A stretch of 36,072 bases of DNA from positions 1 through 36,072 of IMG/VR virus record IMGVR_UViG_3300008740_000022, one strand, 5' to 3'. A program made the translations under genes and the position numbers. This document shows positions 1 to 16,257 of the stretch, one piece after another. Origin of the DNA: a virus. A model generated the notes under the pieces. It did not search any database. It was given only the letters and a program-made list of their open reading frames with translations, and was not told where the DNA came from. Position 1 is the first letter of the stretch. The number at the start of each line of letters is the position of its first letter.

Positions 1-162
1 ATGTATGGTGATATTGATATTTGTCTTCACGATTATGGCTTGGTTGGTTCTGGAGTAAAGAGGGTTGCACAAGAATTTGGAATTAAAAGATTTATGGGAG
101 AAGAGAAAGATTATAATCCTTTAGGTAATTTGATCGACGATTGGGAAGCGGTTTTGATATGA
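1..162 (+). CDS. 3' end of a truncated gene, possible methyltransferase C-terminus
   Basis: An open frame runs in from the window edge and stops with TGA at 160-162, giving 53 visible residues; the first codon happens to be ATG but the gene probably starts upstream. The visible part contains HDYG followed by GSGVKRVAQEFG. An HDY...GVK.A..EF pattern is common near the C-terminus of class I SAM methyltransferases such as the Methyltransf_24 group, so that is a tentative guess. The stop overlaps the next start as ATGA, so it belongs to the same translationally coupled sugar operon. The function is not established. Confidence 0.45.
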   Translation: MYGDIDICLHDYGLVGSGVKRVAQEFGIKRFMGEEKDYNPLGNLIDDWEAVLI

Positions 163-1085
163 AGATTATGTTTAATCGTAAAGTCGTTGATGGTCCGTGG
201 GGTGGTGGCAATTTGTTTGTGAAGGCAATGTCTGAGCATCTCAAGCAAAAAGATCATGATGTTTGTTTTGATTTTGAGGATGATATTGATATTATTTTTA
301 TGGTAGATCCCAAAAGAATTGACCGGAATGCTGGCTATTCTGTTGACGAGATCAGCGAATATGTAAGTAAATTTCCAGATACAGAAATAATTCATAGGAT
401 TAATGAATGTGATCGAAGGAAGGGAACCGATTTTATGGATTCTCTTTTATTGGAATCTAATATTATAGCTGACCACACAATTTTTATCAGTCAATGGTTG
501 GCAGATTATTTTGTAGAAAGGGGATTTAATAGAGAATATGATGTCATATATAATGGCTGTAATTTATCTCATTTTTATCCAAAGGTAGAATATAATCGTA
601 AAGGCGATTCTCCTATTAAGTTGGTAACACACCATTGGTCGGACAATTGGATGAAGGGGTTTGATATATATACGGCATTAGATAAGTTAGGTAGAGATGA
701 TATAGAATTTACTTATGTAGGTAGGTATAATAATCAATATCAACCAAAGAATACTAGGTTAATTTCTCCACTTCATGGGGAGAAATTGGGAAATGAATTG
801 AGACAGCATGATGTATATGTAACAGCTTCACGATTTGAACCCTGTGGTATGCATCATATTGAAGGCTCTGCTTCTGGTCTTCCTGTGTTGTATCACAGAG
901 ACGGCGGTGGTATTAATGAGTTATGTAAAAATCATGGTATAGAGTTTCATGACATGGATACATTTTTTGAAGGACTCCAAAAAATAATGGATAATTATGA
1001 TGATAGTGTGCGTAATATAGATTATACATATTTGTCATCTGGACGAATGTGTAGTGATTATGAAAAGGTGATTTTACATGTCTAA
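159..1085 (+). CDS. GT-B glycosyltransferase (GT4-like)
   Basis: A 308-residue protein that probably transfers a sugar from an activated donor in the cytoplasm. The C-terminal half has a GT-B nucleotide-sugar domain: a THHWSDNWMKGFD segment after the linker, then an EPCGMHHIE stretch fitting the EX7E donor-binding motif of GT4 enzymes, followed by SGLPV and a GGINEL loop. The N-terminal acceptor domain is divergent. The start at 159 overlaps the previous stop as ATGA; an in-frame TTG at 141 is less likely. The gene overlaps the next by 8 bp. It is somewhat short for GT4 (usually 350-400 aa). Donor and acceptor are unknown. Confidence 0.78.
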   Translation: MKIMFNRKVVDGPWGGGNLFVKAMSEHLKQKDHDVCFDFEDDIDIIFMVDPKRIDRNAGYSVDEISEYVSKFPDTEIIHRINECDRRKGTDFMDSLLLESNIIADHTIFISQWLADYFVERGFNREYDVIYNGCNLSHFYPKVEYNRKGDSPIKLVTHHWSDNWMKGFDIYTALDKLGRDDIEFTYVGRYNNQYQPKNTRLISPLHGEKLGNELRQHDVYVTASRFEPCGMHHIEGSASGLPVLYHRDGGGINELCKNHGIEFHDMDTFFEGLQKIMDNYDDSVRNIDYTYLSSGRMCSDYEKVILHV

Positions 1086-2121
1086 AGATTTAGTTATATT
1101 TGGCCCTTGGTGTGGAGAATTTTCATATGAGTTTCAATTTTGGGTTCCTGAGATAAGGAAAAAAAGAAATACTGAGTTTAAAGATTTTCATGCGATTCAT
1201 GTTGGATATGAAGGGCGGTCTATTTTATATCGTGATTTTATAGATGAATATATTACATATCCGAAAGACTTAGAAGATACTTTGGTATATCCGTCAAATT
1301 GTATGCAAATTTTTCCAAACGAAGACCCGCACACAGCCGGCCGCGGAATTCCAGATCAATTAAAGATTTTTTTAGAACAACTTTGTTCGCATTATCAAAA
1401 TACATTTGAATCTGTTGTTGTTTATTTGCCGCCAGCAGATCCTAATCGAACTACTGAAAGTTCAAATCAACAACTTCCAGACGCCGAGTACGAATATTAT
1501 TCTGCAAGCGAAGATATATTAAATGAAATGAAAAAAGAAATTGCTTTTGAAGATTCCGAAAGAAAAACAGTTGCATTATTAGCACGGTTTAGATATAGGG
1601 TTTGGGGGCGAACTGCCCTCGGAGAACCGTTGGAAAATGGTTTGCGTTTATGTAGTGATGATTGGGATCCAAAACATTGGGAAATTTTTGTTGATATGCT
1701 TATTAATGTATTGAACTTAAATGTGTGTATTATTGACATACCCCCGATTGAATGTAACGGAGGTTCTTTATCTTTTCGTGATTCTGAGGTGTATGAACGA
1801 AATAAAAAATATATTAAGTCTATTCGGTTTGAAGGAAAAGATTCTGTAGAAAGACAAATTGCATTATTACAATTAACGGATTGTAGTATTTATGGTGCAA
1901 CAGGAGCAGCAATGCTTCCTTATTTTGTAGGAACTCCCGTTTTTATGCAATCGGCAAAGGAATTTGGATATAGGTTTCGGTATCAATGGCATAAAAATTT
2001 AACAAATAATTTAAAAAATGTTTGTATTGTTGAGGACGTTTCCCGTACCGAATTACGAGAGTCTTCTCCGGTGGATTTATTTAACAGGTTTAAAGAATTT
2101 TTTGAAAAAATAAAAAAATGA
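1078..2121 (+). CDS. Probable glycosyltransferase, GT-B-like, family uncertain
   Basis: A 347-residue protein without a family I can name securely. It opens with a beta-strand and GPWCGEFSYEF, a glycine-rich turn of the kind that begins a Rossmann-like domain. Near the C-terminus, ALLQLTDCSIYGATGAAML followed by FVGTPVF resembles the donor-site region of GT-B enzymes of the GT9/GT23/GT61 type, where a small-residue turn precedes a hydrophobic helix and a GTP/GxP turn. It lies between a GT4-like enzyme and methyltransferases, which supports a sugar-transfer role by context. It overlaps the previous gene by 8 bp. A nucleotide-sugar-modifying enzyme is an alternative. Confidence 0.55.
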   Translation: MSKDLVIFGPWCGEFSYEFQFWVPEIRKKRNTEFKDFHAIHVGYEGRSILYRDFIDEYITYPKDLEDTLVYPSNCMQIFPNEDPHTAGRGIPDQLKIFLEQLCSHYQNTFESVVVYLPPADPNRTTESSNQQLPDAEYEYYSASEDILNEMKKEIAFEDSERKTVALLARFRYRVWGRTALGEPLENGLRLCSDDWDPKHWEIFVDMLINVLNLNVCIIDIPPIECNGGSLSFRDSEVYERNKKYIKSIRFEGKDSVERQIALLQLTDCSIYGATGAAMLPYFVGTPVFMQSAKEFGYRFRYQWHKNLTNNLKNVCIVEDVSRTELRESSPVDLFNRFKEFFEKIKK

Positions 2122-2164
2122 ATTTATTAAAATTTTTAGATTTTGACAGACAGGAGATAGTTTG

Positions 2165-2749
2165 ATGTTTATAAATCCAGAAATAAACTCTAGCTATAGA
2201 CACAGAGAGATGGGTCGATTTTTGTATGATGCCGCTATAGAAACTAATGCGAAAACCCTTGTGGATATTGGAATATTGAATGGGTACTCGACGGTTTGTT
2301 TGGCATTGGCAGCAAAGCAAACAGGCGGAACTGTATATGCATATGATCTTTTTGACGACTATGAGTATATTAGTTCTAACCATGATACAGTCATGGCCAA
2401 TTTAGAGCGATATAACGTGCTTGATAATGTTGTTGTGAAAAATATGTCATTTGATGATTGGCTGGATATAAATATTGGTTTTAATGTATTGCATGTTGAT
2501 ATATCAAATACTGGAGACACTATTTTGAAGCTAAATCGAAAGTTTTCTGAAATGGTTGATTCTAATTGTAGAGTTTTCTTTGAGGGTGGTTCCGTAGAGA
2601 GGGATTATGCTGATTGGATGGTGAAATATGAGATGAAAAAAATTACCCAAACGGGGGTTTCGTATAGGGTATTAGATAGTGATGTTTACTGGGACACTGA
2701 TGCTGATCGAGAGTATCGCCCAAGTATTTCGGAGTTGTTGCGAAGTTAA
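2165..2749 (+). CDS. Class I SAM-dependent methyltransferase
   Basis: A 194-residue Rossmann-fold methyltransferase. Motif I is visible as VDIGILNGYST (about residues 35-45), followed by the acidic strand VYAYDLFDD that binds the adenosyl ribose, and a later strand NVLHVDIS corresponding to motif IV. The fold resembles small-molecule or sugar methyltransferases of the Methyltransf_24 type. ATG at 2165 is chosen because AGGAG at 2152-2156 lies 8 nt upstream; a TTG three bases earlier is possible but too close. The 43-bp gap upstream is one of the larger ones in this operon. The substrate is unknown; a sugar hydroxyl is likely by context. Confidence 0.65.
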   Translation: MFINPEINSSYRHREMGRFLYDAAIETNAKTLVDIGILNGYSTVCLALAAKQTGGTVYAYDLFDDYEYISSNHDTVMANLERYNVLDNVVVKNMSFDDWLDINIGFNVLHVDISNTGDTILKLNRKFSEMVDSNCRVFFEGGSVERDYADWMVKYEMKKITQTGVSYRVLDSDVYWDTDADREYRPSISELLRS

Positions 2750-2753
2750 TTTT

Positions 2754-3392
2754 ATGAAGTTTGAATATGAGATTGAAAAATATAATTTTGTCAGAGAAGT
2801 TTCCTCCTTATATGATAATTGTATGTTGGATGAAATTCACACCCAATGGATCGGCAGCAAACAGTATGATTTACTTGATGCTGTAGTTGAGGATCAAATT
2901 ACGGTTTATCATAAAGAATTTTATAGCAGAATAAACACTACAAATTTTTATGAAATATATCATTCTTTTATGAAGGACGTTATTGCTGAAATTATTAATG
3001 AAGATTTTTTATATCAGAGAATACCTACCTTCAGAGTACATCAGCCTGATAATATAGCAGTTGCAAAATTTCATAAAGATTGTGATTATAGCCATACCAA
3101 GGATGAGATAAATTTCTATTTACCCTTAACTAAAGCATGGGGAACAAATACTATATGGGTAGAGTCCTCGCCGGGGAAAAAGGATTACAGTCCAATTGAA
3201 GCCGATATTGGTGAGTGCGTAATGTGGAAAGGCGCAACATTATTGCACGGAAATAAGGTGAATGATACATGCAAGTCTAGGGTCAGTGTTGATTTTAGAG
3301 TTTTGCCGGTGTCGTGTTATAAGGATGTTGAAATGTATAGTATTACAAATCAGACTAAAATGGTAGTTGATCAGTATTGGGAAAGGCTTTAA
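2754..3392 (+). CDS. 2OG-Fe(II) oxygenase, PhyH/StrG-like
   Basis: A 212-residue non-haem iron, 2-oxoglutarate-dependent oxygenase with the double-stranded beta-helix order. The metal triad appears as H107-K-D109 and H165 (LLHGN), and an arginine after it (R176 or R182 in SRVSVDFR) should hold 2-oxoglutarate. The segment resembles the streptomycin-pathway StrG/phytanoyl dioxygenase-type proteins that hydroxylate or oxidise sugars and small metabolites. ATG at 2754 follows the previous stop by 4 bp; the open frame extends further upstream but would overlap the methyltransferase. It is the first of three different oxygenases in the operon. The substrate is unknown. Confidence 0.75.
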   Translation: MKFEYEIEKYNFVREVSSLYDNCMLDEIHTQWIGSKQYDLLDAVVEDQITVYHKEFYSRINTTNFYEIYHSFMKDVIAEIINEDFLYQRIPTFRVHQPDNIAVAKFHKDCDYSHTKDEINFYLPLTKAWGTNTIWVESSPGKKDYSPIEADIGECVMWKGATLLHGNKVNDTCKSRVSVDFRVLPVSCYKDVEMYSITNQTKMVVDQYWERL

Positions 3393-3393
3393 A

Positions 3394-4578
3394 ATGCCTA
3401 AAGTTTCATTTTTAGATTTGGGCAGACAACCTATTGCGAATGGGTTTCTATCTGAACAAAATTTTGTAGATGAGTTTTTTTATAATCTTTCCGTTGGTTT
3501 TGATGAAGAGACGTGTTTGGTCACTCAATTGGATTATGTCAAACCAGAGTTGATGTTTAACGACACCTATGCATATAGAGGCTCAATGTCGAAGACTATG
3601 GTGGATCATTTTTCGCGTTTTTCTGACATTGCAACTAAGTACCTGTTTGAGTGGGAAGCAATTTGGGGCGGTCCGCCTAGAGTTTTAGAGATTGGTTCTA
3701 ATGATGGTGTGTTTCTGAAAAATTGGGACAATAAGAATACTTTTGCTGTAGAGCCATGTGCGAATTTTGCAAAAGAGACTAATGATCTGGGCTATAAAAC
3801 CTATTGTGATTTTTGGAATAGAAATCTAGCAGAAAAGATTGGGCAAGAGAATGGATATATGGATTTGATTTTTGCTGCAAATTGCATTTGTCATATTCCT
3901 GATCTAGACGAAACATTCTCCGCAGTTGAGTCGCTACTCAAGCCTCATGGTTTGTTTGTTTTTGAAGACCCGTCTCTTGCTAGTATGATCAATAATAATT
4001 CTTATGACCAAATATACGATGAGCATCCTCATATTTTTTCAGTAATGGCATTATCTAAACTTCTGAGAAGAAATGGTCTTGAGATCGTTCATGTAGATTT
4101 GCTGAATGTTCATGGTGGATCTAATAGAATCTGGGCCCAAAAAGTAGGTCATCGTACTGAGCCTAATATTGATAAGTATATTGATTATGAGAGAATTATT
4201 GGCTTGGATGATATTGAGTGCTTTAACCGATTTGCTGAAAGGGTTGCTCAGTCTAAGGAAGATTTGAGAAATCTATTGACCCGATGTGCGGACCAAAATA
4301 AAAAGGTGATTAGTTATGGTGCAACATCAAAGTCAACTACAGTCTTTAATTATTGTGATATTGGTCCTGATCTAATATCGTGTATCACGGATACTACTCC
4401 AGAAAAACAACATAAGTATTCTCCGGGTATGCATATTCCAATTGTTCCCCAAGAAGATTCTGACATTTTTGATTATGCTTTTTTGGGTGCATGGAATTTT
4501 GCTGAAGAGATTAGGAAGAAAGAACTTTATTTTGATGGTAGGTTTATTACCCATGTTCCTTGTGTGAGGATTTTATAA
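3394..4578 (+). CDS. Sugar C-methyltransferase (TylC3/NovU type), zinc motif lost
   Basis: A 394-residue SAM-dependent C-methyltransferase of the type that methylates C-3 of NDP-4-keto-deoxysugars. Motif I is VLEIGSNDGVFL (97-108). The family hallmarks DEHPHIFS, HGGSNR and the C-terminal YGATSKSTT...NYCDIGPDLI...SPGMHIPI (Methyltransf_14 domain) are all present. The N-terminal Methyltransf_13 region begins directly at FLDLGRQPIANGFL: the CxxC that normally precedes it is missing and the second pair is reduced to one cysteine (C41). The start at 3394 lies 1 bp after the previous stop. It implies that a branched deoxysugar is made, with other precursor enzymes probably supplied elsewhere. Confidence 0.85.
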   Translation: MPKVSFLDLGRQPIANGFLSEQNFVDEFFYNLSVGFDEETCLVTQLDYVKPELMFNDTYAYRGSMSKTMVDHFSRFSDIATKYLFEWEAIWGGPPRVLEIGSNDGVFLKNWDNKNTFAVEPCANFAKETNDLGYKTYCDFWNRNLAEKIGQENGYMDLIFAANCICHIPDLDETFSAVESLLKPHGLFVFEDPSLASMINNNSYDQIYDEHPHIFSVMALSKLLRRNGLEIVHVDLLNVHGGSNRIWAQKVGHRTEPNIDKYIDYERIIGLDDIECFNRFAERVAQSKEDLRNLLTRCADQNKKVISYGATSKSTTVFNYCDIGPDLISCITDTTPEKQHKYSPGMHIPIVPQEDSDIFDYAFLGAWNFAEEIRKKELYFDGRFITHVPCVRIL

Positions 4579-4579
4579 A

Positions 4580-5542
4580 ATGGAAAAATATTGTAAAGTT
4601 ATATGTACATACTTTGGACCAAGGCACATTAGAAATACAAATATTGGATGGCCAAGACATGGACAATATTTTATAGATAGTTCTATGTGTTTAGACAACT
4701 TGAAGTTTATTGTAGATGTTGAAACTAATCTTGACGCCGGATTGCCATATGATTTGATAATTGTTAATAATGATTCTGGATTTGAGGAAGGCAAGAATTG
4801 GTTAAATTCTATTAATGAAAAAAAGACTAAGTGTGGAAAAATTTATACTTTAAATAAAGAAAATAAAGGAAAAAATTATTCAGCATTTAGAGTTGCATAT
4901 GAGACATTCAGAGATAAGTATGATTTTTTTATGTTTATTCCTGATGATTATGTCATGTTAGCTAAAAATTATTATAAAGAAACCGTATTGCAGTATAGAG
5001 AAGATAATGAAAATGACAATACTGCCGTGATTGCGTTAGCGGGAACTTCTGATACAAGATATTGGCCTGTTCATTCACATGATGGAATGACATTGATTCA
5101 TAAAAAGTACATAGAAGAGGGGATACAAAAATATGGAAGAATCCCATCAGACGATGATGAGTTAAATTACATTTCTTCAGATGATTCTAATTATATTGAT
5201 GTAATTCCGGGTCATGTGGATAATGGAGAAATACCTTTTACTAATCGCTATGTCCAGCTTGGATATAAAATTACACCATTTGGATATCTTCATACATGTG
5301 AAGAAACGGATTATAATAGAAATTGGGAACCAAAGCCCGGAGATACTATTCCAGCTTTACCTGAATATAGAGCTTCTTGGCCTGTGCAATTAAATAATGA
5401 AATTTATTTAACCCCTACTTATAATTTATTGCACGATGTTCCTAATAAAGTGGATGTTGAATATTTTAAATTAGATGAAGATATTTCGTTTATAGTAAAA
5501 TCTCAGATAGAAAAGATAAGAGTTCAAAATGAAAAGAGTTAA
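4580..5542 (+). CDS. GT-A glycosyltransferase (GT2-like)
   Basis: A 320-residue protein with the hallmarks of a GT-A nucleotide-sugar transferase. An N-terminal beta-strand (residues 6-12) leads to a region with YDLIIVNNDSG, as in GT2 enzymes (strand, then Asn/Asp), followed by NKGKNYSAFR, a typical nucleotide-base-contact stretch. FMFIPDDYVML, with an acidic DD pair after a hydrophobic strand, fits the metal-binding DxD position. The aromatic C-terminal part probably binds acceptor. Start ATG at 4580, 1 bp after the previous stop; it overlaps the next gene by 14 bp. Linkage and donor are unknown. Confidence 0.68.
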   Translation: MEKYCKVICTYFGPRHIRNTNIGWPRHGQYFIDSSMCLDNLKFIVDVETNLDAGLPYDLIIVNNDSGFEEGKNWLNSINEKKTKCGKIYTLNKENKGKNYSAFRVAYETFRDKYDFFMFIPDDYVMLAKNYYKETVLQYREDNENDNTAVIALAGTSDTRYWPVHSHDGMTLIHKKYIEEGIQKYGRIPSDDDELNYISSDDSNYIDVIPGHVDNGEIPFTNRYVQLGYKITPFGYLHTCEETDYNRNWEPKPGDTIPALPEYRASWPVQLNNEIYLTPTYNLLHDVPNKVDVEYFKLDEDISFIVKSQIEKIRVQNEKS

Positions 5543-6188
5543 ATTTAATCGAATAAGTACGAAGAGTGAACCTTATCCTCATATATCAATAGACAATTTT
5601 ATACCTTCAGAGTCTTTGGTAAGAGCAGCCGCAACAAGTTTTGATGTTGTGCCTGATGATGATTGGGTAAAATATGGAGAGGGTGATAATCAGATTCAGT
5701 ATTGCTCTAAGAATCGTCAGCTAACAACTCCCTCTGCTCTTCTTGTATTGGATTACATTGCTTCACACTTTGATCCCAATGTAGCTTTTGGTGATCTTAC
5801 TAATGATGCATTTCCAGATACTTCTTATTATGGCGGTGGTATGATGATAACTCCCATTGGAGGATATTTGGGAATGCATGTTGATGCCAAGGTTCATGGA
5901 CTGCATCGAAACTGGGTCAGGGAGTACAGTGCAGTTTTGTGTATTTCTGAGGATTATAATTCTTCATTTGACTTACTGCTCCATGATGGAGAACACACTC
6001 ATACAAGAGTTCCTTATAAGTATAATCGACTGAATGTCTTTAAGTGTTCTGAAAATTCTTGGCATGGCTTTCCTAACCCAACGGAAGAGTTTACTAGAAA
6101 AACATTGGGCGTGATGTTCTGGTCTGCAAAGAATGAAGATGTTCGAGATGCATTCAAGGCAAAGTTTAATAATGATTTGGAGTTCTAA
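5529..6188 (+). CDS. 2OG-Fe(II) oxygenase, prolyl-4-hydroxylase-like
   Basis: A 219-residue oxygenase of the P4H-like branch. The iron triad is H117-V-D119 in GYLGMHVDAK and H179 in SWHGFP, with R190 (TRKTL) as the likely 2-oxoglutarate ligand. The WHG.P...E.TRK.L pattern after the second histidine is typical of P4H-like small-molecule or sugar oxygenases. PHISIDNFIP near the N-terminus matches the first strand commonly seen in this family. The start lies inside the preceding gene (14-bp overlap) and the stop shares one base with the next ATG, so translation is coupled. The substrate is unknown. Confidence 0.75.
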   Translation: MKRVKFNRISTKSEPYPHISIDNFIPSESLVRAAATSFDVVPDDDWVKYGEGDNQIQYCSKNRQLTTPSALLVLDYIASHFDPNVAFGDLTNDAFPDTSYYGGGMMITPIGGYLGMHVDAKVHGLHRNWVREYSAVLCISEDYNSSFDLLLHDGEHTHTRVPYKYNRLNVFKCSENSWHGFPNPTEEFTRKTLGVMFWSAKNEDVRDAFKAKFNNDLEF

Positions 6189-6892
6189 TGAAAAAAATTA
6201 TTGTTTCTGGTGGAAATGGAAAGTTTGCACAACAGTTAGTTGAGCAGAATATTGAATACGAAATGGTTGCTTTAGATAAGTCTAAGTTAGATGTTGCCGA
6301 TTTAACTAATGTAGAAAATGTTGTTGATGATGTTCGTCCAGATATTTTTATCCATTCGGGTGCATTTGCTCGACCTATGGCATTACATAATGATTTTCCT
6401 GATAGGAGTATTCGATCCAATATTATCGGAACTAGTAATGTTGTTTTGGCGTGTTTAAAAAGAAATATAAAATTGGTTTACATTTCAACTGATTTTGTCT
6501 ATCCAGGAACTAAAGGAAATTACAAGGAAATAGATGGTGTGTTTCCGGTAAATAAATATGCATGGTCTAAGCTAGGAGGAGAATGTGCAGTTCAGCTATA
6601 TGATAATTCTTTGATTTTGCGAATATCTATGTGTGAGTATCCTTATCCACATTCAAAGGTGTTTGGTGATTTGAAAAAAAGCACAATATATAACACCGAT
6701 GCTGCGAAGATTGTTTTAGATTTATTGGATGAAACTGGAATAATTAATGTCGGTGGAGACTCTATGTTTTTGTATGATTTTGTTAAACGGAAAAAAACAG
6801 AAATTGAAAAAAATTCTATATATGATAATCATGAAGTAGAAATGCCAAGTGATGTGTCGATGAATTGCGAAAAAATGAAGGAACTTTTGTAA
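6188..6892 (+). CDS. NAD(P)-dependent sugar epimerase/reductase, RmlD-like
   Basis: A 234-residue extended short-chain dehydrogenase resembling dTDP-4-dehydrorhamnose reductase. The dinucleotide-binding turn is GGNGKFAQQL (residues 8-17), LDVAD (34-38) matches the acidic strand seen in RmlD, STDFVYPG (100-107) corresponds to the family's STD.V..G motif, and the catalytic pair is Y124...K128 in YAWSK. It is shorter than typical RmlD (about 290 aa), so part of the C-terminal substrate domain is trimmed. Likely role: reducing a 4-keto nucleotide sugar made upstream. It has 1-bp overlaps with both neighbours. Confidence 0.8.
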   Translation: MKKIIVSGGNGKFAQQLVEQNIEYEMVALDKSKLDVADLTNVENVVDDVRPDIFIHSGAFARPMALHNDFPDRSIRSNIIGTSNVVLACLKRNIKLVYISTDFVYPGTKGNYKEIDGVFPVNKYAWSKLGGECAVQLYDNSLILRISMCEYPYPHSKVFGDLKKSTIYNTDAAKIVLDLLDETGIINVGGDSMFLYDFVKRKKTEIEKNSIYDNHEVEMPSDVSMNCEKMKELL

Positions 6893-7899
6893 TGAAAATT
6901 GTTTTTATACATGATACTACCTATTTTAAAGAAGACACTACTGTTGCTTTCATTGCGGAGGGTTTATATGAAAATGGTGTTGAGGTTATTGCTAGTCATT
7001 TAGGAAATGGAATTAAAAAAGCATATACTGAAGATGAAATAATAGAACATTCTAAAGATGCAGATTTTATTTTTTATTTATGGGCAAAGACTGGCGGTAA
7101 GTATGGTCCTCTTGGTGTGGGAAAGGAGGATCTTGTTAAAAAAATAAATCGACCCGAAGTTACTGTATATTGGGATGGTTCTGAATGGAATTATACTGGG
7201 ACAAGTAATGCTTCTATAGCACTTTCTTATGGATTGGACGATAAAAGGAGATATAAACAAGAGCCTTGGATGAACGAAGATATGCTTGATTATTGTAAAT
7301 GGTATTTTAAACGAGAATGTTATCCAGAAGATGTAGACCGGGGCGCTATTCCGTTTACATATGGCTGCGAAAATTCCATGTTTAGAAATTATTATAATTT
7401 GGAAAAAAAGTATGATATATTTTGTTCCTTTGGTCATTTTACAACTGGATTAAGGTCTGACATTTATAATTTTTGTAGTGATCCAAAGGCTAATAAATTT
7501 TATGACACCACCTATAATATTCCTAGAAATGGGCCAAATCATATTTTAGGAACTCGTATACCGCTTGATGATTATTTTAAAGTTTTATCGCAATCTTATA
7601 TTAGTGTTGCTGCATGGGGCGCTAGTAATTTTACATATCGAGAATGGGAAATTATGGCGAATAAAACATTATGTTTTATTCAGAAACCTATGCCAGTGTG
7701 TCCTAATAGACCAAAGGATGGAATCCATTGGGTTGAGTATTCTAATATGAAAGAATTTGAAGAAAAACTTGAATATTATTTAAACAATAAAGATTTATGC
7801 ATAAAAATAGGTCAAGCTGGTTATGATCATGTTTTGAAGTATCATACTAGCAAAGTAAAGGTTGCAAATCTTTTAAAGACAATAGGAGGAATTGTTTAG
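6892..7899 (+). CDS. GT-B-like glycosyltransferase
   Basis: A 335-residue protein beginning with a Rossmann strand (MKIVFIHD) and a predicted two-domain GT-B shape. The C-terminal portion, with an FTYREWEIMANKTLCF helix-strand followed by an EYYLNNKDLCIKIGQAGYDHVLKYHT helix, resembles the Glyco_trans_1_2 / spore-maturation CgeB C-terminal domain, where repeated helices follow a short conserved acidic helix. No classical EX7E motif is obvious, so the assignment is weaker than for the GT4 proteins. ATG at 6892 gives a 1-bp overlap with the previous stop. AGGAGG near its own end serves the next gene. Donor and acceptor are unknown. Confidence 0.55.
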   Translation: MKIVFIHDTTYFKEDTTVAFIAEGLYENGVEVIASHLGNGIKKAYTEDEIIEHSKDADFIFYLWAKTGGKYGPLGVGKEDLVKKINRPEVTVYWDGSEWNYTGTSNASIALSYGLDDKRRYKQEPWMNEDMLDYCKWYFKRECYPEDVDRGAIPFTYGCENSMFRNYYNLEKKYDIFCSFGHFTTGLRSDIYNFCSDPKANKFYDTTYNIPRNGPNHILGTRIPLDDYFKVLSQSYISVAAWGASNFTYREWEIMANKTLCFIQKPMPVCPNRPKDGIHWVEYSNMKEFEEKLEYYLNNKDLCIKIGQAGYDHVLKYHTSKVKVANLLKTIGGIV

Positions 7900-7902
7900 T
7901 AG

Positions 7903-9072
7903 ATGTTTGATCCACAAGCTAAAATTATTGCAAATAGTGACCGTGTTTTAGATTTTCTCCAAGGAAAAAATCCTGCCCCTATTTTGGTAGAGGTTGATCC
8001 TAGTAATGCATGTAATCATGGTTGCTATTTTTGTATTTCATCATATATACATTTGCCAGAATCTAAAAACCTAGAAACCTTTGATCGATCTATTATGCCC
8101 AAAGATGTTTTGCTTAATTTATGTCAGGATTTTATTGACATGGGAGTTCGGGCAATTAATTGGACCGGCGGCGGAGAGCCGACAATCAATCCTGCTTTTA
8201 AAGAAGCACTTGAATTTGTTGGGAACAATTCTGATATTAAAATGGGAATATTTACAAATGGAACATTAATAGATAGGTGGAATTTGTTTGATGCATTTGT
8301 GAATAATTTGACTTGGGCTAGATTTTCGATTGATGCAGGAACTAAAGAGACATATGATTCTGTTCGCCGCGCTAAAGGCAATGAAGGATGGGATAAGATG
8401 GTGGCGAATCTTACAACTCTCATTGAAACAAACAAACAGGCTGATAATAAAATTGATATTGGTGTGGGGTTTGTAATTACGCCCGATACCTATCATGAGA
8501 TTGTAGACTTTGCTAAATTTTTTGTTGATTATGATTTGGAATATTGCCAATTTAAACCAGAGATTGTTAATAGAGAGAGGGAAGATGGGGTCCAAAGAGA
8601 ACAAGATTTTTGGTACAATCGAGTAGATCCTCTACTAGAGGAGGCTAAAAGTATTTTGGGAGATAAATTTCAGATAAATGGATATAAACTATCTGACTTA
8701 GAAAGTGATCCCGGACTTTATGGAAGACGATATGAAAAATGTCTAGGTTCTCAGGTGCAACCCTGTGTTGGCGCTGATGGTCATGTATATGTTTGTACCA
8801 ATCATAGAGGCTATAAACAGTATAGTTATGGTTCTTTATATGAGTCTACCTTTAAAGAAATTTGGGGAAATATTGAGAAGAAAAAAGAAGTCATGCATCA
8901 AATTGATGATGTAGAATGTTTCTCTAATTGTACGCAATTATGTAAGCCACATGAAAGCAATAAGGCTGTGTGGGAAATTTATAACAATATGGGCAATGAA
9001 CAGTATCTTAACAAATTAGATAAAAGAAAAGAAGAACTTTCTAAAACGCTCAAACATAAGGAGTTTATATAA
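7903..9072 (+). CDS. Radical SAM enzyme with SPASM-type C-terminus
   Basis: A 389-residue radical SAM protein. The [4Fe-4S] cluster motif CX3CX2C is at C37-C41-C44 (CNHGCYFC), GGGEP (90-94) is the SAM-contact motif, and TNG (118-120) matches motif III of the fold. The C-terminal region has six further cysteines (C280, C288, C298, C339, C343, C347) with PCVGADGHVYVC, as in SPASM domains that hold auxiliary clusters. SPASM enzymes modify peptides or oxidise and epimerise sugars; here a sugar or nucleotide-sugar substrate is inferred from the neighbours. Strong SD AGGAGG at 7884-7889. One of the best-defined enzymes in the operon. Confidence 0.88.
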   Translation: MFDPQAKIIANSDRVLDFLQGKNPAPILVEVDPSNACNHGCYFCISSYIHLPESKNLETFDRSIMPKDVLLNLCQDFIDMGVRAINWTGGGEPTINPAFKEALEFVGNNSDIKMGIFTNGTLIDRWNLFDAFVNNLTWARFSIDAGTKETYDSVRRAKGNEGWDKMVANLTTLIETNKQADNKIDIGVGFVITPDTYHEIVDFAKFFVDYDLEYCQFKPEIVNREREDGVQREQDFWYNRVDPLLEEAKSILGDKFQINGYKLSDLESDPGLYGRRYEKCLGSQVQPCVGADGHVYVCTNHRGYKQYSYGSLYESTFKEIWGNIEKKKEVMHQIDDVECFSNCTQLCKPHESNKAVWEIYNNMGNEQYLNKLDKRKEELSKTLKHKEFI

Positions 9073-9073
9073 T

Positions 9074-10042
9074 ATGATTAAATTTGATGCTGTAATGGCC
9101 CCTCATAGATTCTGGTATATAATTCCAAAATTAAAAGAAGCAGGAATTTTTAATTCTTTTAGAGAAGATGGTGCATGGGGCGGAATAAAACCAAGAAAGA
9201 CTGCATGTCTTTACGGTGAGAATTTAAATGTATATATTGATGCTTCTGATGGACATGCGGTGGAGTGGGGAACTATTGAGCCTTGTGAGCGAGTTCTTTG
9301 GATAGTGGAGGATACTAAAGATAAGCCTTTTTTGTTTTTTAAGAATTGGTATTCTCCTTCTATGTGTATAGAAACGGACAAAATTGTTTCTGAAAATAAT
9401 GGAAGAACAATTCCGTTTATGTATTGGGGAACCTATCCATATTTTCCCTCTATTTGGCAAAGTAGAAATGAATTAATGGAAATAAACAAAAGTACAGAAA
9501 AAATTATAGATGTTGGTCTATATGCAAAGCCAAGAAAGTATTATGATCCTAATAGGTCTAAGTTTGATAGTAGAATGTCTTGGATGGGATATGAATGGTT
9601 CGGTTATGGCCCAGCAGTAGATACTGGGATGAATGAACATTCTGCAAGAATTGAAATTATCAATAAGGTAAAACAATCAAAATATACTTATGACCACATT
9701 TATGATGTTCCTATGGAAACTTTGATTTCGAGGAGCATGAATACTAAAGTCGTGTATGATATGCCAACAACTTCTAGCATTTCGCATAGAATGTTTGAGT
9801 TTGGTTGGTTTGGTAAGTGTGTTATTCTTAGAACAAGTGATGTAGATTTTCCTTATTCGTGGAAAGAATATTATCCAGAACTTGATTATAATTCTGACAC
9901 ATGGGAAGACGATCTTGGGGAAATAATAGAAAATCATGAAGAATGGGGAGATAAGATTAAATATTATCTTGAAACATATTGTACACCAGAAGTTATTACT
10001 GATTATTTTTTGAAAGAGATAGAAAAAGAATTAGATAAATGA
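9074..10042 (+). CDS. GT-B-like glycosyltransferase, CgeB-type C-terminus
   Basis: A 322-residue protein with an unusual N-terminal half and a C-terminal half resembling the Glyco_trans_1_2 domain: SISHRMFEFGWFGKCVIL is the helix-strand in which the conserved motif R-x-x-E-x-x-x-x-G of such enzymes lies, followed by an acidic stretch and a DDLGEIIENHEEW helix. VLWIVEDTKD in the first domain is a probable Rossmann strand. It is translationally coupled: it starts 1 bp after the radical SAM gene and overlaps the next gene by 4 bp (ATGA). It may be paralogous in the C-terminal part to the protein at 6892-7899. The substrate is unknown. Confidence 0.55.
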   Translation: MIKFDAVMAPHRFWYIIPKLKEAGIFNSFREDGAWGGIKPRKTACLYGENLNVYIDASDGHAVEWGTIEPCERVLWIVEDTKDKPFLFFKNWYSPSMCIETDKIVSENNGRTIPFMYWGTYPYFPSIWQSRNELMEINKSTEKIIDVGLYAKPRKYYDPNRSKFDSRMSWMGYEWFGYGPAVDTGMNEHSARIEIINKVKQSKYTYDHIYDVPMETLISRSMNTKVVYDMPTTSSISHRMFEFGWFGKCVILRTSDVDFPYSWKEYYPELDYNSDTWEDDLGEIIENHEEWGDKIKYYLETYCTPEVITDYFLKEIEKELDK

Positions 10043-10734
10043 TTATACGAGAACAAGCCAAGAATTTTTATTTGAATAATTTTAGCACGAATGCTTTTGA
10101 TATTACCAGTAAAACTTATATCAATTATATGTCCGCATTGAAAACTATATATGATGAAACGCTAAAGGATGATTATCACTTTGTTGAAAAGTATCCATAC
10201 ACACAAGACCTGAAACCTTCTGTTTTTGATTATGATGAGTCTTTTGTTGATGTTCTAGTCGAACATGGAATTGATCTTTACATTAAAGATGTGATTGGTT
10301 TGAATTTATGTTTATCTCATATTCAGATTAGAAATGCACATCCTTATCCAGATGGAAAGAGTAGTTATCAAGAATGGCATAGAGACACATATGTATATGA
10401 TGGTAATTTTTCTGGAATGTTTCCTCCTGGTTTAAAGTTGATATTCTATCCACACTTTGATAGAGAACCGCAGCCTGTTTTAGCGTGTGTGCCTAATACG
10501 GCATTGACGATGCAATACGATAGAGCGTCAGATTTTTCTCAGATTACAGAAAATAGGATACATACAATTAATAGTTCAAATGATACATACTTTATATTCA
10601 ACACTTCGATGTTGCATTCTACTTTGCCGGCAAGAGAGAAAAATTTGAGAATTATATATTGCTTTAATTATGAACATTCTTTGGACGAACATGCCAAAAA
10701 ATGTCAAGAGATGTGGAAGGACATGACAGCGTGA
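10039..10734 (+). CDS. 2OG-Fe(II) oxygenase, phytanoyl-CoA dioxygenase-like
   Basis: A 231-residue oxygenase. The iron triad appears as H114-R-D116 (EWHRDTY) and H193 (SMLHSTLPA), with R199 or R204 for 2-oxoglutarate. The spacing and the W-H-x-D context fit PhyH-like enzymes. It is clearly different from the other two oxygenases (2754-3392 and 5529-6188) outside the triad, so these are not recent duplicates. Start is ATG at 10039, coupled to the upstream gene by ATGA. The natural substrate is not visible; sugar hydroxylation or deoxygenation-type chemistry is an inference from context. Confidence 0.74.
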   Translation: MIIREQAKNFYLNNFSTNAFDITSKTYINYMSALKTIYDETLKDDYHFVEKYPYTQDLKPSVFDYDESFVDVLVEHGIDLYIKDVIGLNLCLSHIQIRNAHPYPDGKSSYQEWHRDTYVYDGNFSGMFPPGLKLIFYPHFDREPQPVLACVPNTALTMQYDRASDFSQITENRIHTINSSNDTYFIFNTSMLHSTLPAREKNLRIIYCFNYEHSLDEHAKKCQEMWKDMTA

Positions 10735-11723
10735 AAAAAATAGGAATTGTTGGTGCAGGAAAAAGATATGTCGATTACTATAAGGATGTGATCGAATCTT
10801 TTGATTTAGAGATTTCTGGATTTGTTACACAGTCTGGTAAGCTATCCGATGAAGTAGGAGACTATGAAGTTTTTGCGACAGTATCAGAATTAGTGAATCA
10901 TGATGAGCCAGATTTTCTGCTTGCTGTTGTGCCATATTATGCGACTCCTCAAATTGTACTAGAGGCTACAAAAGTTGAGTGTGATATTTTAGTGGAGACT
11001 CCTTTTCCTCCTCCTCAGCATTGGGATGTGATACGGGCGACTGTAGAAGAGTCTGGTATCGTTGTTGGTGTTGTTGAGCAATGGCCATTTCTTCCTTTAG
11101 AATGTTTTAAAAAGAAAGTCATTGAGGCTGGTTTGTTGGGCGATATTCATTTAGTTGAGAATGATTATAGAACATATAACTATCATGGCATGGCTCAGCT
11201 TAGAAATTATGTAGGAAAAGATGTCGGTATTAAAAATGTTATAGCATCGACTCATAAAAATTATCCACTGAATGATAATGATGATTATTGGAATATCACT
11301 CTGGCTGAATTTGAGAATGGAGCAACACTATTGTTTAAACATTCTGATTTAGCAAAAAGAGAAATCGCCAAGAATATGAGAGGTACTCCTTCGATTCGTA
11401 TACATGGAAGTAAAGGAACTTTCGTTTCTGGTTGTTTGTTGAAAGACGAATCTACACCTTGGTTTAGTGCCATTGCAGAAGATGGGGATACATATAATCG
11501 AGGTGTCGGAGTGCATTTCGATGATGGTGTTTTGGTGAAACTCACTTCCATTCTGCCAAATGGTTCTGAGATTTCGTGGGAGAATAATTATTTTGAACAT
11601 GGATTTGATGAGTCACAAATTGCTATTGCTCAACATATCGAATCAATGATGAATGGTGATATGTTGTGGACAATGGAAGATGGGTTGATAGATTTGAGTC
11701 TTGGTGATTCCAGCTGGATATAA
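10731..11723 (+). CDS. Gfo/Idh/MocA-family oxidoreductase
   Basis: A 330-residue NAD(P)-dependent oxidoreductase. The Rossmann turn is GIVGAGKRY (5-13), followed by the usual VVPYYATPQIVLEA helix and an ILVETPFP stretch that occupies the position of the family's EKP motif, with the lysine replaced by threonine (T90). The second domain has a G-L-L-G-D-I turn, as in family members that oxidise sugar or nucleotide-sugar hydroxyls. I place the start at GTG 10731, which overlaps the previous stop as GTGA with AAGGA upstream; the longer frame from ATG 10701 would add ten unlikely residues. Probable role: oxidation or reduction step in sugar synthesis. Confidence 0.78.
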   Translation: MKKIGIVGAGKRYVDYYKDVIESFDLEISGFVTQSGKLSDEVGDYEVFATVSELVNHDEPDFLLAVVPYYATPQIVLEATKVECDILVETPFPPPQHWDVIRATVEESGIVVGVVEQWPFLPLECFKKKVIEAGLLGDIHLVENDYRTYNYHGMAQLRNYVGKDVGIKNVIASTHKNYPLNDNDDYWNITLAEFENGATLLFKHSDLAKREIAKNMRGTPSIRIHGSKGTFVSGCLLKDESTPWFSAIAEDGDTYNRGVGVHFDDGVLVKLTSILPNGSEISWENNYFEHGFDESQIAIAQHIESMMNGDMLWTMEDGLIDLSLGDSSWI

Positions 11724-11753
11724 GGACATGAATATGTTGGAGAAAGTAGTGGA

Positions 11754-12656
11754 ATGAAAGTTTATGTGAATGCACCTAATGAAAATTGGATATTAGATCG
11801 CTATAAAAAGGAATGGTGCGACAATCATTTGGAATTATCTACCGACAACCCATTAGATGCTGATTTATTATGGATGCTCGATAGTTATACATGGATGAAT
11901 TGGAATCCTAAAATATTAGCAGAGAAAAAGGTGGTAAGCACAATTACACATATTGCGCCAGAAAAATTTGATTATGAGGCATTTAAATATCGTGATCAAT
12001 TTGTCGACCATTATCAAGCTATGTGTGATAAAAGTGCTGAGGATGTTCGGAAGCTCACGAATAAACCAGTTACGTCTTTGAAATTTTGGGTCAATGAAAA
12101 TATATGGAAACCTTATGATAGTAATTATAAAAAATTGAGAATTAAATATAAGTTACCGATAGAGGGTGTTTTGTTTGGTTCTTTTCAGAGAGACACAGAA
12201 GGTCACGATTTAAAATCGCCTAAGTTAGTTAAAGGTCCAGACATTCTGTGTGATTATCTTGAATATTTGAAGTCTATTGATTTTAAGTTTAGTGTCGTAT
12301 TGTCTGGATGGCGAAGGCAATATGTGATGAATAGATTAGATAATGCTGGTATACCATACTACTATTTTGAAATGTGCGATTTTGATATATTGAATGAATT
12401 GTATAATTGTCTTGATCTGTACATAGTGTCTTCTCGTAGAGAGGGAGGACCCCAGGCAATATCAGAATGCGCTATGACGAAGACTCCTATTATTTCCACT
12501 GATGTTGGATTGGCATCTGACATTCTTGCGCCCGAGAGTGTCAATGATAATTTGAAGGAAGCAACACCAAATTTGGAATATGCCTATGATAAGGTTCAGC
12601 AATATACCATAAAGAATCATATGCAGAAATTTGTGGATCTATTCATTGACATTTGA
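11754..12656 (+). CDS. GT4-type glycosyltransferase
   Basis: A 300-residue GT-B glycosyltransferase. The donor-binding region EGGPQAISE fits EX7E exactly and is followed by KTPIISTDVGLASDIL, the classic GT4 ending. An earlier GSFQRDTEGHDLKSPKLVKG segment corresponds to the nucleotide-contact loop with the family's G-R/K...KG pattern. It is shorter than most GT4 proteins. A 30-bp gap separates it from the oxidoreductase, with GGAG in front of the ATG. It is the last gene of the sugar operon: a sigma70-like promoter overlaps its 3' end and the following gene has quite different composition. Confidence 0.82.
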   Translation: MKVYVNAPNENWILDRYKKEWCDNHLELSTDNPLDADLLWMLDSYTWMNWNPKILAEKKVVSTITHIAPEKFDYEAFKYRDQFVDHYQAMCDKSAEDVRKLTNKPVTSLKFWVNENIWKPYDSNYKKLRIKYKLPIEGVLFGSFQRDTEGHDLKSPKLVKGPDILCDYLEYLKSIDFKFSVVLSGWRRQYVMNRLDNAGIPYYYFEMCDFDILNELYNCLDLYIVSSRREGGPQAISECAMTKTPIISTDVGLASDILAPESVNDNLKEATPNLEYAYDKVQQYTIKNHMQKFVDLFIDI

Positions 12657-12674: not shown

Positions 12675-12703
12675 TACTAGCGAACAATTTAGCAGAGGGT
12701 TTC

Positions 12704-13822
12704 ATGGCAAAGCGTAAAGGTGCCAAGTACGAAGCTACAATTTACGGTACAAAAGAACCGACATGGAATGATGTGTCTGAGTTGAGTTCGGAAGAATTGC
12801 AACACAAGATTTCCGAAGCTCTCAATTATTACAACTATGTGTATTCTCCCAAAGAATGCCATGCGTTTATGGTAGATTACGTTGCGTCTATTGATAAGAA
12901 GAGGGGTGCTGTTCTTCGTACCACGAACGTAACGGGCAAGCGTACATATTCCGCAGTTGCTCGAATGGCAACAAATGGTCTTGTTCTTCCTGAGGACACA
13001 CAGGCGCGCCTTGATGCTGAAGTAGAGTCTCTGGTATCTGAAGCTCAGGAGATTTTGAAGACTCGAAAAAAGAAGGCAGCAAAGAAGGTTGCCAAGCCTA
13101 TCAATATTCAGGAACGAATTCGGACACAGGTGTCTCACCTCATTGGTGAGATTGAAGGTGAAGTTGACGAGTTTCTTCTGAATGGTTGCAAATCAGATTT
13201 CAATCTGTATAAGTGGCTCAAGGCAAAGCAAGTAAAAGGAATGTTGTCTGGCAAGATTGCAACATACTATGATGCGCTTTGCGATGAGTTGAAAGATGTT
13301 GTTTCTGGTAGAGACGATGAGCTGAACGAAGCCTATTCGTATTTGACGAAGCCGCAGAAGAAGCGGTATCTCAAGTTTATTCAGTCGTTGGTGGCTGATG
13401 CACTAGCCTGGGCAGACTCAGCCAAGAAGAGTCGCAAGCCGCGCCGTCGTAAAGTTCGGTCTGTTGCTGAAATTGTATCTTCGGTAAAGTATAAGAAGTC
13501 CGATGATACATATAAGATTGCGAGCGAATCTCCCGAAAATATGATTGATGCGTCTCAGGTGTGGATCTTTGACACCAAGAATCGTTTTTTGTATCGGTAT
13601 GTGTCTGATTCTGGTATTGTGATAAAAGGTACGACACTTAAAGAGTGGGACTCGACTAAATCATTCAAGAAGAAGATTCGCAAGCCTGAACAAATTTTGC
13701 CTGACGTGATGAAGGGCGGTAAGGTAAAGTTGCGGAAGTTGATGGATATGATTAAAGCAAAGGAAACAAAGGTTACCGGTCGTATTAATGCTGACATGGT
13801 AATAGTAAGGATAGTAAAGTAG
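12704..13822 (+). CDS. Large basic protein of unknown function
   Basis: A 372-residue protein that I do not recognise beyond a general likeness to uncharacterised proteins of marine T4-like phages. It is rich in lysine and arginine, with a KKKAAKK stretch near residue 125 and a K/R-rich KKSRKPRRRKVR patch near the middle, suggesting nucleic acid or virion DNA contact. The N-terminal part may be helical (ELSSEELQHKISEALNYYNYVY). ATG at 12704 is chosen for AGAGGG just upstream; the frame extends back to 12653 but that would read through the promoter. Base composition is clearly less AT-rich than the preceding operon. Confidence 0.7.
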   Translation: MAKRKGAKYEATIYGTKEPTWNDVSELSSEELQHKISEALNYYNYVYSPKECHAFMVDYVASIDKKRGAVLRTTNVTGKRTYSAVARMATNGLVLPEDTQARLDAEVESLVSEAQEILKTRKKKAAKKVAKPINIQERIRTQVSHLIGEIEGEVDEFLLNGCKSDFNLYKWLKAKQVKGMLSGKIATYYDALCDELKDVVSGRDDELNEAYSYLTKPQKKRYLKFIQSLVADALAWADSAKKSRKPRRRKVRSVAEIVSSVKYKKSDDTYKIASESPENMIDASQVWIFDTKNRFLYRYVSDSGIVIKGTTLKEWDSTKSFKKKIRKPEQILPDVMKGGKVKLRKLMDMIKAKETKVTGRINADMVIVRIVK

Positions 13823-14061
13823 TGAGAATTGAACAAACTAGAAGAGAGGCACTAACTGAAGTTGTAATTAGTCGAATGAGTGTTCTCGTAATTGCGATTA
13901 TTACGGCTGAGTTATTTGTATACGAGTGGTTTGGTGTAAAGGTTTCGTCTAGTCAAAATGTAGGTATGATGATATATTGGTCGTTCCAGAGCATTCTTAT
14001 TGGATACACGATACGTCGATTTTTTGAAATGAGGCTGGGAAGTCGCAATGATTCTCGTTGA
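13822..14061 (+). CDS. Small membrane protein, DUF2061-like
   Basis: A 79-residue protein starting at GTG 13822, sharing one base with the preceding TAG. It has two hydrophobic helices (about residues 19-36 and 48-65) separated by a short loop and a basic N-terminus (RIEQTRREALTEVVISR). The REA.TE.VISRM start followed by two helices and a basic helical tail resembles DUF2061 small membrane proteins. It overlaps rnh by 14 bp, so it is translated with it. The function is unknown. Confidence 0.65.
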   Translation: MRIEQTRREALTEVVISRMSVLVIAIITAELFVYEWFGVKVSSSQNVGMMIYWSFQSILIGYTIRRFFEMRLGSRNDSR

Positions 14062-14923
14062 CCTAAATCAAATTTCGATTAGTAATTTAATGGTATCTTT
14101 GAATAGTAAATACAATCAGCATATGGAAGTGGATGAGAATCTGATTCGCCATATGGTATTGAATAGTCTTCGCATGTATCGAAGCTCATACAAAGAGAAG
14201 TATGGCGAGTTGGTGCTGTGTTGTGACAATAGAAATTATTGGCGCAAAGAAATCTTTCCGTTCTACAAAGCATCCAGAAAAAAGACTCGTGCTTCCTCGG
14301 ATTATGATTGGAATCTAATTTTTGAAACGCTAAATACTATTCGTGATGAGTTGACGGAATATTTTCCGTATAAGGTAATTGACGTTTATCGAGCGGAGGC
14401 AGACGACATTATTGCAATGTTGGCAATGCATCGAAGTGATCCATCAGAACCTACTTTGATCTTGTCTGGTGATAAAGATTTTATGCAACTACAGTATATC
14501 GAAAACGTGGACCAATATTCTCCAGTACAAAAGAAGTTTCTTAAAACTGACGATCCTTCTGTATTCCTAAAAGAGCACATTTTTAGGGGTGATCGAAGTG
14601 ATGGCATTCCTAACTGTTTGTCTGGAGATGGTGTTTTTGTTCAAGGGCACAGGCAGAAGCCGCTTTCAACCAAAAAGTTGAATGAGTGGGTTTCTGATAT
14701 AAATCTGGATCAAGATGAGAAGCCTGATGGTATGGACGAAAATGCCTGGAGAGGATTTTGTCGAAATCGTGAGTTGATCGATTTGAAGTATGTGCCAGAA
14801 GATTTGAAAATTCAGATTTTAGATGCATATGATAATTGTGATATTCCTGATAGAAGCGGTCTTTTGAATTTCTTTATTCAGAAGAGGCTTCGCAATTTAA
14901 TGGACTGTATACAAGAATTTTGA
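14048..14923 (+). CDS. rnh: Ribonuclease H (T4-type 5'-nuclease, FEN family)
   Basis: A 291-residue flap endonuclease/RNase H of the T4 type, which removes RNA primers and flaps during lagging-strand synthesis. Metal-binding acidic residues are in place: D5 (VDLNQ), D60 (CCDNRNYWR), E117/D119/D120 in RAEADDIIAML, D142/D144 in LSGDKDFMQLQ, and D182/D185 in GDRSDGIPN. WRKEIFPFYKASRKK is the characteristic helical-arch region with its basic residues. The length is close to T4 RNase H (305 aa). In T4, rnh lies near 33, 59 and 32; here those genes follow about 6 kb downstream in the same orientation. Confidence 0.93.
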   Translation: MILVDLNQISISNLMVSLNSKYNQHMEVDENLIRHMVLNSLRMYRSSYKEKYGELVLCCDNRNYWRKEIFPFYKASRKKTRASSDYDWNLIFETLNTIRDELTEYFPYKVIDVYRAEADDIIAMLAMHRSDPSEPTLILSGDKDFMQLQYIENVDQYSPVQKKFLKTDDPSVFLKEHIFRGDRSDGIPNCLSGDGVFVQGHRQKPLSTKKLNEWVSDINLDQDEKPDGMDENAWRGFCRNRELIDLKYVPEDLKIQILDAYDNCDIPDRSGLLNFFIQKRLRNLMDCIQEF

Positions 14924-15843: not shown

Positions 15844-16029
15844 ATGTTGAAATTAAATTCCGAATTTGATGATCAACAAAAATATTATCATTGTGATTTT
15901 TGTGGGCAGTCTTCTTTTCTTAAAGTGTTCCGTGTAGTAATAGCAGAAGAATACAATAAAATTACATCTCGTCCGTTATGGGCATGTGCGGACTGTTCGC
16001 GAGAGAAGGATCGCCTCAGGGAGGCGTGA
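15844..16029 (+). CDS. Small zinc-finger protein
   Basis: A 61-residue protein with two CxxC knuckles, C17-x-x-C20 (HCDFCGQ) and C48-x-x-C51 (ACADCS), typical of a single four-cysteine zinc site. It begins directly after the preceding stop codon. The last codons overlap a GC-rich hairpin (16012-16026). It might bind nucleic acid or a protein partner; no specific role can be assigned. Confidence 0.6.
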   Translation: MLKLNSEFDDQQKYYHCDFCGQSSFLKVFRVVIAEEYNKITSRPLWACADCSREKDRLREA

Positions 16030-16257
16030 GCCCTTCTCCGGTCTCCGGGCGCTCATATAGAGAATCAGCCGGTGGAGGTCGCCCTCTCCAGGCTTTTCTT
16101 CTCTAGACCTGTATATTGACTCTAGGGGGTCTATTAAATCGCTGGAGAAACCGTTTTGAGAGCAGTTAGAAACATGAGCAAAATCAACGACTTAGAAGAA
16201 AGTCTAAAAGTTCTTTGATTTCGCATACTTACGAGGCAAGTTTTTTTAAAGAATCCA
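16030..16257 (+). other. Gene-free leader with GC-rich hairpins
   Basis: No convincing gene. Its first part is GC-rich and foldable: a CGCCTC/GAGGCG hairpin (16012-16026) at the end of the preceding gene and an imperfect one at 16028-16054 (GAGC pairing with GCTC). Neither is followed by a proper T-tract, so they are not clean terminators. Two CTCTAG copies lie near 16100 and 16120. The second part is AT-rich and leads into the promoter at 16258. Confidence 0.5.

Follow-up and report, generated by a model that had tools for sequence, protein, structure and literature searches.

A marine T4-like phage carries a glycan island with predicted enzymes for a C-methyl branched deoxysugar

Results

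A glycan island extending beyond the window

We analysed the 36,072-base linear virus record IMGVR_UViG_3300008740_000022 (the window), which begins with an operon of fourteen coupled genes, many of them for sugar-modifying enzymes. These genes form the downstream (3') half of a glycan island that numbers 25 genes or more. The island probably makes a C-methylated 2,6-dideoxysugar that is built into a tailored glycan, the reaction order, the exact sugar and the acceptor being predictions. As originally predicted, the fourteen open reading frames (ORFs) all lie on the plus strand, from the ATG at 159 to 12656, with intergenic gaps of -14 to +43 bp. The operon is nevertheless longer than the 12.5 kb first proposed, as its start lies outside the window: a 51,329-base IMG/VR contig, which matches the window at 100% over the first 8,359 bases and at 99.93% over the remainder, adds 8 kb upstream with 11 further same-strand coupled genes, and does not reach the start of the island.

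Predicted deoxysugar chemistry

In the mycarose, vancosamine and kijanose pathways, the steps that follow RmlA and RmlB are carried out by a 2,3-dehydratase, a 3-ketoreductase, a 3-C-methyltransferase, RmlC and an RmlD-type reductase. Judged from their sequences, the window and the near-identical contig together cover most of the steps after RmlA/RmlB of a mycarose/kijanose-type branched 6-deoxysugar pathway. Gene 05 (3394-4578), expected to be a deoxysugar C-methyltransferase, is a sugar 3-C-methyltransferase (CMT) of the TcaB9/KijD1 type, matching structurally solved members of this group over nearly its full length (PDB 5t64, 1.8e-85; PF08484, 3e-41). Its YxEH motif (YDEH), H167 and Y59 were invariant in 77 phage relatives, and we take the YDEH motif and H167 to be the counterparts of the catalytic Tyr/Glu/His of TcaB9. 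Gene 08 (6188-6892) encodes a short (234 aa) candidate RmlD-like 4-ketoreductase that keeps a YAWSK motif (PF04321, 2.6e-29; 5e-21 against PDB structures of dTDP-4-dehydrorhamnose reductase, RmlD), with a score under the RmlD equivalog cut-off, and gene 13 (10731-11723) a Gfo/Idh/MocA oxidoreductase that is a candidate 3-ketoreductase (PF01408, 7e-7). Upstream of the window, we identified a single-domain, EvaA-like NDP-hexose 2,3-dehydratase (U07; PF03559, 4e-50; EvaA, 2.5e-46), an RmlC epimerase (U08; PF00908, 2.5e-60; TIGR01221, 5e-61, above the equivalog cut-off) and a short-chain dehydrogenase/reductase (SDR; U06), which adjoins the dehydratase here and in all loci of its module.

On this basis, the dehydratase U07 would act on dTDP-4-keto-6-deoxyglucose, for which the source would be either the host's RmlA/RmlB or phage genes that lie outside the contig. 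Candidates for the 3-ketoreduction are the SDR U06 and the Gfo/Idh protein of gene 13, after which 3-C-methylation by gene 05, epimerisation by U08 and 4-ketoreduction by gene 08 may yield a mycarose/kijanose-type 2,6-dideoxy-3-C-methylhexose in activated form. The glycosyltransferases would couple this branched sugar to other sugars, and the O-methyltransferases, 2-oxoglutarate (2OG) oxygenases and radical SAM enzyme would tailor them.

Several observations weigh against this scheme. Neither RmlA nor RmlB had a match in the 51-kb contig, and the key dehydratase and RmlC both lie outside the window. The phage 2,3-dehydratases are single-domain proteins (~245-267 aa), whereas EvaA and the host enzymes have two domains, so that the phage forms need not be active. 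Compared with TcaB9, the phage CMT is missing the N-terminal part and retains little of the zinc site. The gene 13 product is a distant Gfo/Idh/MocA family member that has no close relative in the PDB and is not close to KijD10. Both the glycan and its acceptor are predicted from genes alone, and soluble enzymes could also work on lipid-linked intermediates at the inner membrane. As regards the missing early steps, RmlB adjoins the module in one related locus (L125), and it scored above cut-off in 101 of 151 genomes of the Cyanobiaceae, which may not be the host group.

Recurrence of the dehydratase and CMT in other phages

We identified the same combination of enzymes in other viral contigs. 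In a 41.8-kb contig (L089), CMT, 2,3-dehydratase and RmlC occupy adjacent frames, and the same operon encodes a Gfo/Idh protein that, among PDB entries, best matches the sugar 3-ketoreductase KijD10 (1.4e-32). Contigs G060, G065 and G067 each carry the dehydratase together with CMT. All five dehydratase-bearing viral contigs longer than 12 kb also contained CMT, three of them having been found via the dehydratase itself: a scan started from the dehydratase recovered four contigs, one of them a fragment of 11.5 kb and the other three, all over 12 kb, with CMT. As G065 and G067 are close relatives, these represent approximately four independent lineages. A module of oxygenase, SDR, dehydratase and RmlC was additionally kept in four further contigs. 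We found no match to the 2,3-dehydratase among 50,697 phage records; it was present in seven of 300 Cyanobiaceae genomes, and where there were two matches both fell in one frame of 450-520 aa.

Conservation and exchange of the sugar genes

A survey of the CMT confirmed 105 viral stretches, from which 80 loci were kept, 62 with enough downstream sequence for gene counts. The comparison of gene order across phage contigs that had been suggested revealed a conserved cassette in these 62 loci, with CMT followed by FdtA (52 loci), RmlD (49), a small cupin-like protein (47), an oxygenase related to gene 07 (39) and a DegT aminotransferase (30). Of this cassette, the window phage carries CMT, the oxygenase and RmlD; relatives of FdtA and DegT were not detected anywhere in the 51-kb contig. 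Shortly 5' of CMT, loci L038-L047 carry DHDPS-like, KDO8P/NeuB-like and CMP-sugar synthetase-like genes.

Relatives of the radical SAM enzyme (gene 10) turned up in unrelated sugar clusters, at 28 viral loci in all and with best-segment identities of 63-100%, and we consequently dropped this gene as a marker of the C-methyl deoxysugar pathway. Among phage records it had only remote matches (29% or less). One of the loci lies on a 130-kb contig from a single-cell genome of Prochlorococcus, which contains only a relative bearing this gene. Inspected by eye, the radical SAM clusters of L007, L015, L018, L020 and their relatives contain PanB-like and acetolactate-synthase-like enzymes, a DegT aminotransferase, another radical SAM protein whose N-terminus is of B12 type, a heptose-type kinase and a cytidylyltransferase, and by this inspection they look like another unusual sugar pathway.

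The sugar genes have probably been exchanged between phages. Loci L003 and L035-L037 have their downstream flank (phrog_11903 and RNase H) in common with the window phage but carry a different sugar cargo. Identities were higher in the cassette (CMT 83%, oxygenase 07 82%, radical SAM 90%) than in the flank (phrog_11903 42-46%, RNase H 55-64%), and silent-site differences were 0.48-0.57 in the cassette against 0.78-0.87 in the flank. The cassette genes, being more alike than the flanking core genes, have thus probably moved between phages more recently than those cores diverged. In one relative, contig G025, a B12-dependent ribonucleotide reductase region borders the island on one side and the phrog_11903/RNase H pair on the other.

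The AT-richness of the operon, originally described as strong, is real but moderate, at 34.1% GC against 38.6-39.4% in neighbouring phage DNA and 48.8% in the tRNA region; in three related phages, island GC was 34-36% and that of the flanks 39-43%. Median ratios of non-synonymous to synonymous divergence (dN/dS) ranged from 0.11 (radical SAM) to 0.42 (U05, U08), calculated by a simple Nei-Gojobori method on related pairs with dS of 0.15-1.5, with few pairs in some families. Conservation of the cassette, inter-phage exchange, purifying selection and intact catalytic residues, observed directly as are the gene families themselves, bear out the view of the operon as an acquired, co-inherited and functional pathway.

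Other genes of the island

Family or motif support was obtained for 11 of the 14 operon genes. Six had been proposed to be glycosyltransferases, and three of these have a family match: gene 01 (159-1085; GT-B, group 1; PF00534, 2.5e-8; phrog_2170), gene 09 (6892-7899; Glyco_trans_1_2; PF13524, 6.4e-11) and gene 14 (11754-12656; GT-B, group 1; PF13692, 1.7e-6). The other three, genes 02 (1078-2121), 06 (4580-5542) and 11 (9074-10042), had none in Pfam/PHROG-type model scans. Genes 02 and 11 stay candidate glycosyltransferases, and gene 06 is GT-A-like by eye only (FIPDD). AlphaFold models were unreliable for gene 02 (pLDDT 43) and gene 11 (pLDDT 30), and Foldseek on the low-confidence model of gene 02 gave no match below 1e-3. 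Profile comparisons found no relation of gene 11 to the gene 09 family or of gene 06 to a GT2 family, which is weak evidence with only 2-3 sequences per profile, and a PDB profile search with gene 06 returned no glycosyltransferase among its matches. Gene 11 has one relative (49%, L116), and gene 06 is 46% identical to a protein of L119 and 26-29% to those of L035, L054 and L057.

Family models support the second methyltransferase and the radical SAM/SPASM enzyme as proposed, as they do the RmlD-like and Gfo/Idh/MocA proteins. Gene 03 (2165-2749) is a class I methyltransferase (Methyltransf_24; PF13578, 5.9e-8), likely a sugar O-methyltransferase, and is 61% identical to the L035 gene in the same position adjoining CMT. 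In gene 10 (7903-9072; PF04055, 5.9e-18; PF13186, 1.4e-4), C37/C41/C44 and C215/C280/C298/C343/C347 were invariant among relatives, and there was remote similarity to cytosylglucuronate decarboxylase (2e-4).

The three suggested 2OG-Fe(II) oxygenases are retained, with model scores below cut-off and metal-binding motifs kept. Gene 04 (2754-3392) is of the 'sporadic carbohydrate cluster' type (TIGR04324, 6.7e-12) and keeps an HKD motif, its HxD and distal His being invariant in six relatives. Gene 07 (5529-6188; PF13640, 2.6e-4; 82% to L035) is a core member of the CMT cassette, and its facial triad and arginine (H117xD119...H179...R190) were invariant in 43 relatives. Gene 12 (10039-10734) is HalD-like (PF23169, 9.5e-4); because it keeps HxD, as HRD at residue 114, we rejected a halogenase function, and it is probably better read as a hydroxylase.

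The first bases of the window (1-161, plus strand) hold the 3' end of U11, a Methyltransf_24 protein of 194 aa that is truncated by the window edge and overlaps gene 01 (PF13578, 3.4e-11, on L001:1676-2260); it is the second of this family, and is accompanied upstream by a TylF-type methyltransferase. The upstream genes also include a GT-B glycosyltransferase and three that we read as glycosyltransferases of the GT2 kind, of which one matches Pfam significantly and the other two were assigned by eye or on marginal matches. A protein that looks FkbM-like by eye and a second oxygenase, grouped with gene 04 through its similarity to it, complete the set. A search for late promoters (TATAAATA, CTAAATA) found no excess within the operon.

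The phage and other features of the window

The window contig carries T4-like core genes for RNase H, helicase loader, gp32-type single-stranded DNA-binding protein (SSB), tail tube, baseplate hub, tube cap and gp25. We therefore dropped contamination from a host island as the source of the operon. The core proteins have only distant kinship to cyanophages. Directly downstream (12698-14923, plus strand) lie a phrog_11903 protein (2e-84), a DUF7220 protein and a T4-type RNase H (RNaseH_C).

Four tRNAs (Lys, Asn, Trp and Ile-TAT) are located at 17262-18458, approximately 4.6 kb downstream of the operon. The region that bears them (16000-19000), at 48.8% GC compared to 34-39% in the rest of the record, includes much sequence that has tiny ORFs or is apparently non-coding. 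A single long minus-strand ORF of 469 aa (23276-24685), between the SSB and tail genes, matches no family in Pfam and gave no more than a marginal hit in PHROG. We additionally identified two other genes among the baseplate genes: a Zeta-toxin-like P-loop protein (30884-31900; PF06414, 2.5e-4, below cut-off; phrog_5268, 5e-52) and a PAAR-motif protein (34145-34450; PF05488, 1.3e-23) that is probably a tail-spike tip. Just 3' of the window end, contig G001 (L031) has, by eye, an ORF of ~1,842 aa after a gp6-like baseplate gene, which resembles a large baseplate/fibre fusion protein.

Discussion

Acceptor of the glycan and alternative explanations

A Kyte-Doolittle scan of the fourteen window genes detected one weak single hydrophobic segment (gene 02) and no multi-spanning protein, and multi-spanning ORFs were similarly rare in related loci (3 of 2,412), compared to three in 20 kb of a host cluster (L144). 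The encoded enzymes thus appear soluble, which makes the cytoplasm the probable site of glycan assembly. This fits assembly on a soluble acceptor, and lipid-linked acceptors are also compatible. We slightly favour a virion protein as the acceptor, at somewhat less than an even chance, over the host surface, which is plausible to a lesser degree. The fullest form of this proposal is tentative: that the phage uses its own enzymes to make a 2,6-dideoxy-3-C-methylhexose within a methylated, oxidised oligosaccharide carried covalently on the virion, with modules swapped at a fixed genome site. If true, the swapped sugar modules would represent a changing coat against competitors or host recognition.

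Remodelling of the host surface, in which the lipopolysaccharide (LPS) or O-antigen is altered during infection and superinfecting phages are blocked, is an equally tentative explanation. Picocyanobacterial sugar islands hold the CMT family with RmlA, RmlB, FdtA and DegT; cargo changes strongly at one site, in keeping with competition between phages; and similar clusters have been interpreted in this way (PMC7029224, PMC7824862). However, the window operon encodes no flippase, polymerase or GtrA/GtrB-type membrane protein, and related loci hold almost none; the multi-spanning flippase/transferase required for O-antigen seroconversion of the gtrABC type was not found among the operon proteins. 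The position of the island in a relative, between B12-dependent ribonucleotide reductase and RNase H and away from the tail fibres, likewise speaks against a host-surface role.

It is improbable that the product is no glycoconjugate but a small secondary metabolite or toxin that bears sugars. Antibiotic pathways use the same deoxysugar enzymes, and such a product has been proposed for an S-SSM6a-like second cluster in jumbo cyanophages (PMC7824862), but we recognised no aglycone-making enzyme (polyketide synthase or peptide synthetase) among the genes scanned, and multiple glycosyltransferases and O-methyltransferases better match an oligosaccharide. It is more improbable still that the genes are passive filler DNA for headful packaging, an idea raised for cyanophages (PMC3037559) and in keeping with the highly variable content between related phages, as dN/dS of 0.11-0.42 and invariant catalytic residues argue that the island is not filler, and frames are open and gene order kept over dozens of phages. 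Some phages do have glycosyltransferases and 2OG oxygenases able to modify DNA, a precedent for the DNA base glycosylation listed among the original candidates. This is the least credible of the explanations and we set it aside: no operon gene matched a DNA glucosyltransferase, JBP/TET, pyrimidine hydroxymethylase or other base-hydroxylating enzyme, and oxygenase 04 resembles a carbohydrate-cluster family.

Comparison with known systems

The density of sugar genes was originally considered unusual for a phage; the chemistry is indeed unusual, whereas clusters of the LPS type are already described in marine T4-like phages, namely P-SSM2, S-SSM7, S-SM2 and pelagimyophages (PMC3037559, PMC7824862, PMC7029224). 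Like these, the window phage is T4-like and has a large co-directional block of glycosyltransferases, epimerases/reductases and methyltransferases, near tRNA genes and variable between relatives. In the descriptions of them that we consulted, however, a pathway combining 3-C-methyltransferase and 2,3-dehydratase is not mentioned. Whether the cyanophage clusters are functional or 'stuffer DNA' was left unsettled (PMC3037559), and those of pelagimyophages and jumbo phages were interpreted as changing the host surface (PMC7029224, PMC7824862). The case that phage 'LPS clusters' work is strengthened here by purifying selection, by modules that are conserved and by active sites that remain intact. 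The spread of such clusters may be underestimated, because at least one ocean-wide catalogue of viral metabolic genes filters out contigs bearing LPS islands (PMC11360552).

Giant viruses also make bacterial-type sugars, for capsid fibrils (PMC10117803). Mimivirus/Megavirinae and chloroviruses resemble the phage island in that hot-spot clusters of the virus itself encode nucleotide-sugar pathways of bacterial type together with glycosyltransferases and methyltransferases for sugars (PMC10117803; PMC5408694). In contrast to the phage island, known from genes alone, these systems belong to eukaryotic viruses and are proven by sugar analysis. The term 'C-methyl' was absent from two papers searched for it, and within a limited body of open-access literature we found no account of a phage pathway that combines 2,3-dehydratase and C-methyltransferase.

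The closest likeness in chemistry is to the actinomycete pathways for dTDP-L-mycarose, kijanose and vancosamine (TylX3-TylC3, KijD1/D10, EvaA-E; TcaB9), which share the 2,3-dehydratase, 3-C-methyltransferase, RmlC-type and RmlD-type families; a KijD10-like 3-ketoreductase, as in the kijanose pathway, is present in phage L089. Unlike those pathways, the island is phage-borne, its dehydratase has a single domain and its CMT lacks the N-terminal zinc part, RmlA and RmlB are not encoded nearby, and several glycosyltransferases are linked to it instead of an antibiotic scaffold. The predicted C-methyl branched deoxysugar would be a distinctive mass-spectrometry marker, making the acceptor (virion, LPS or free metabolite) directly testable. 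Thus, phage sugar clusters are already known as a kind, and it is the antibiotic-type C-methyl deoxysugar chemistry that appears to be new in a phage.

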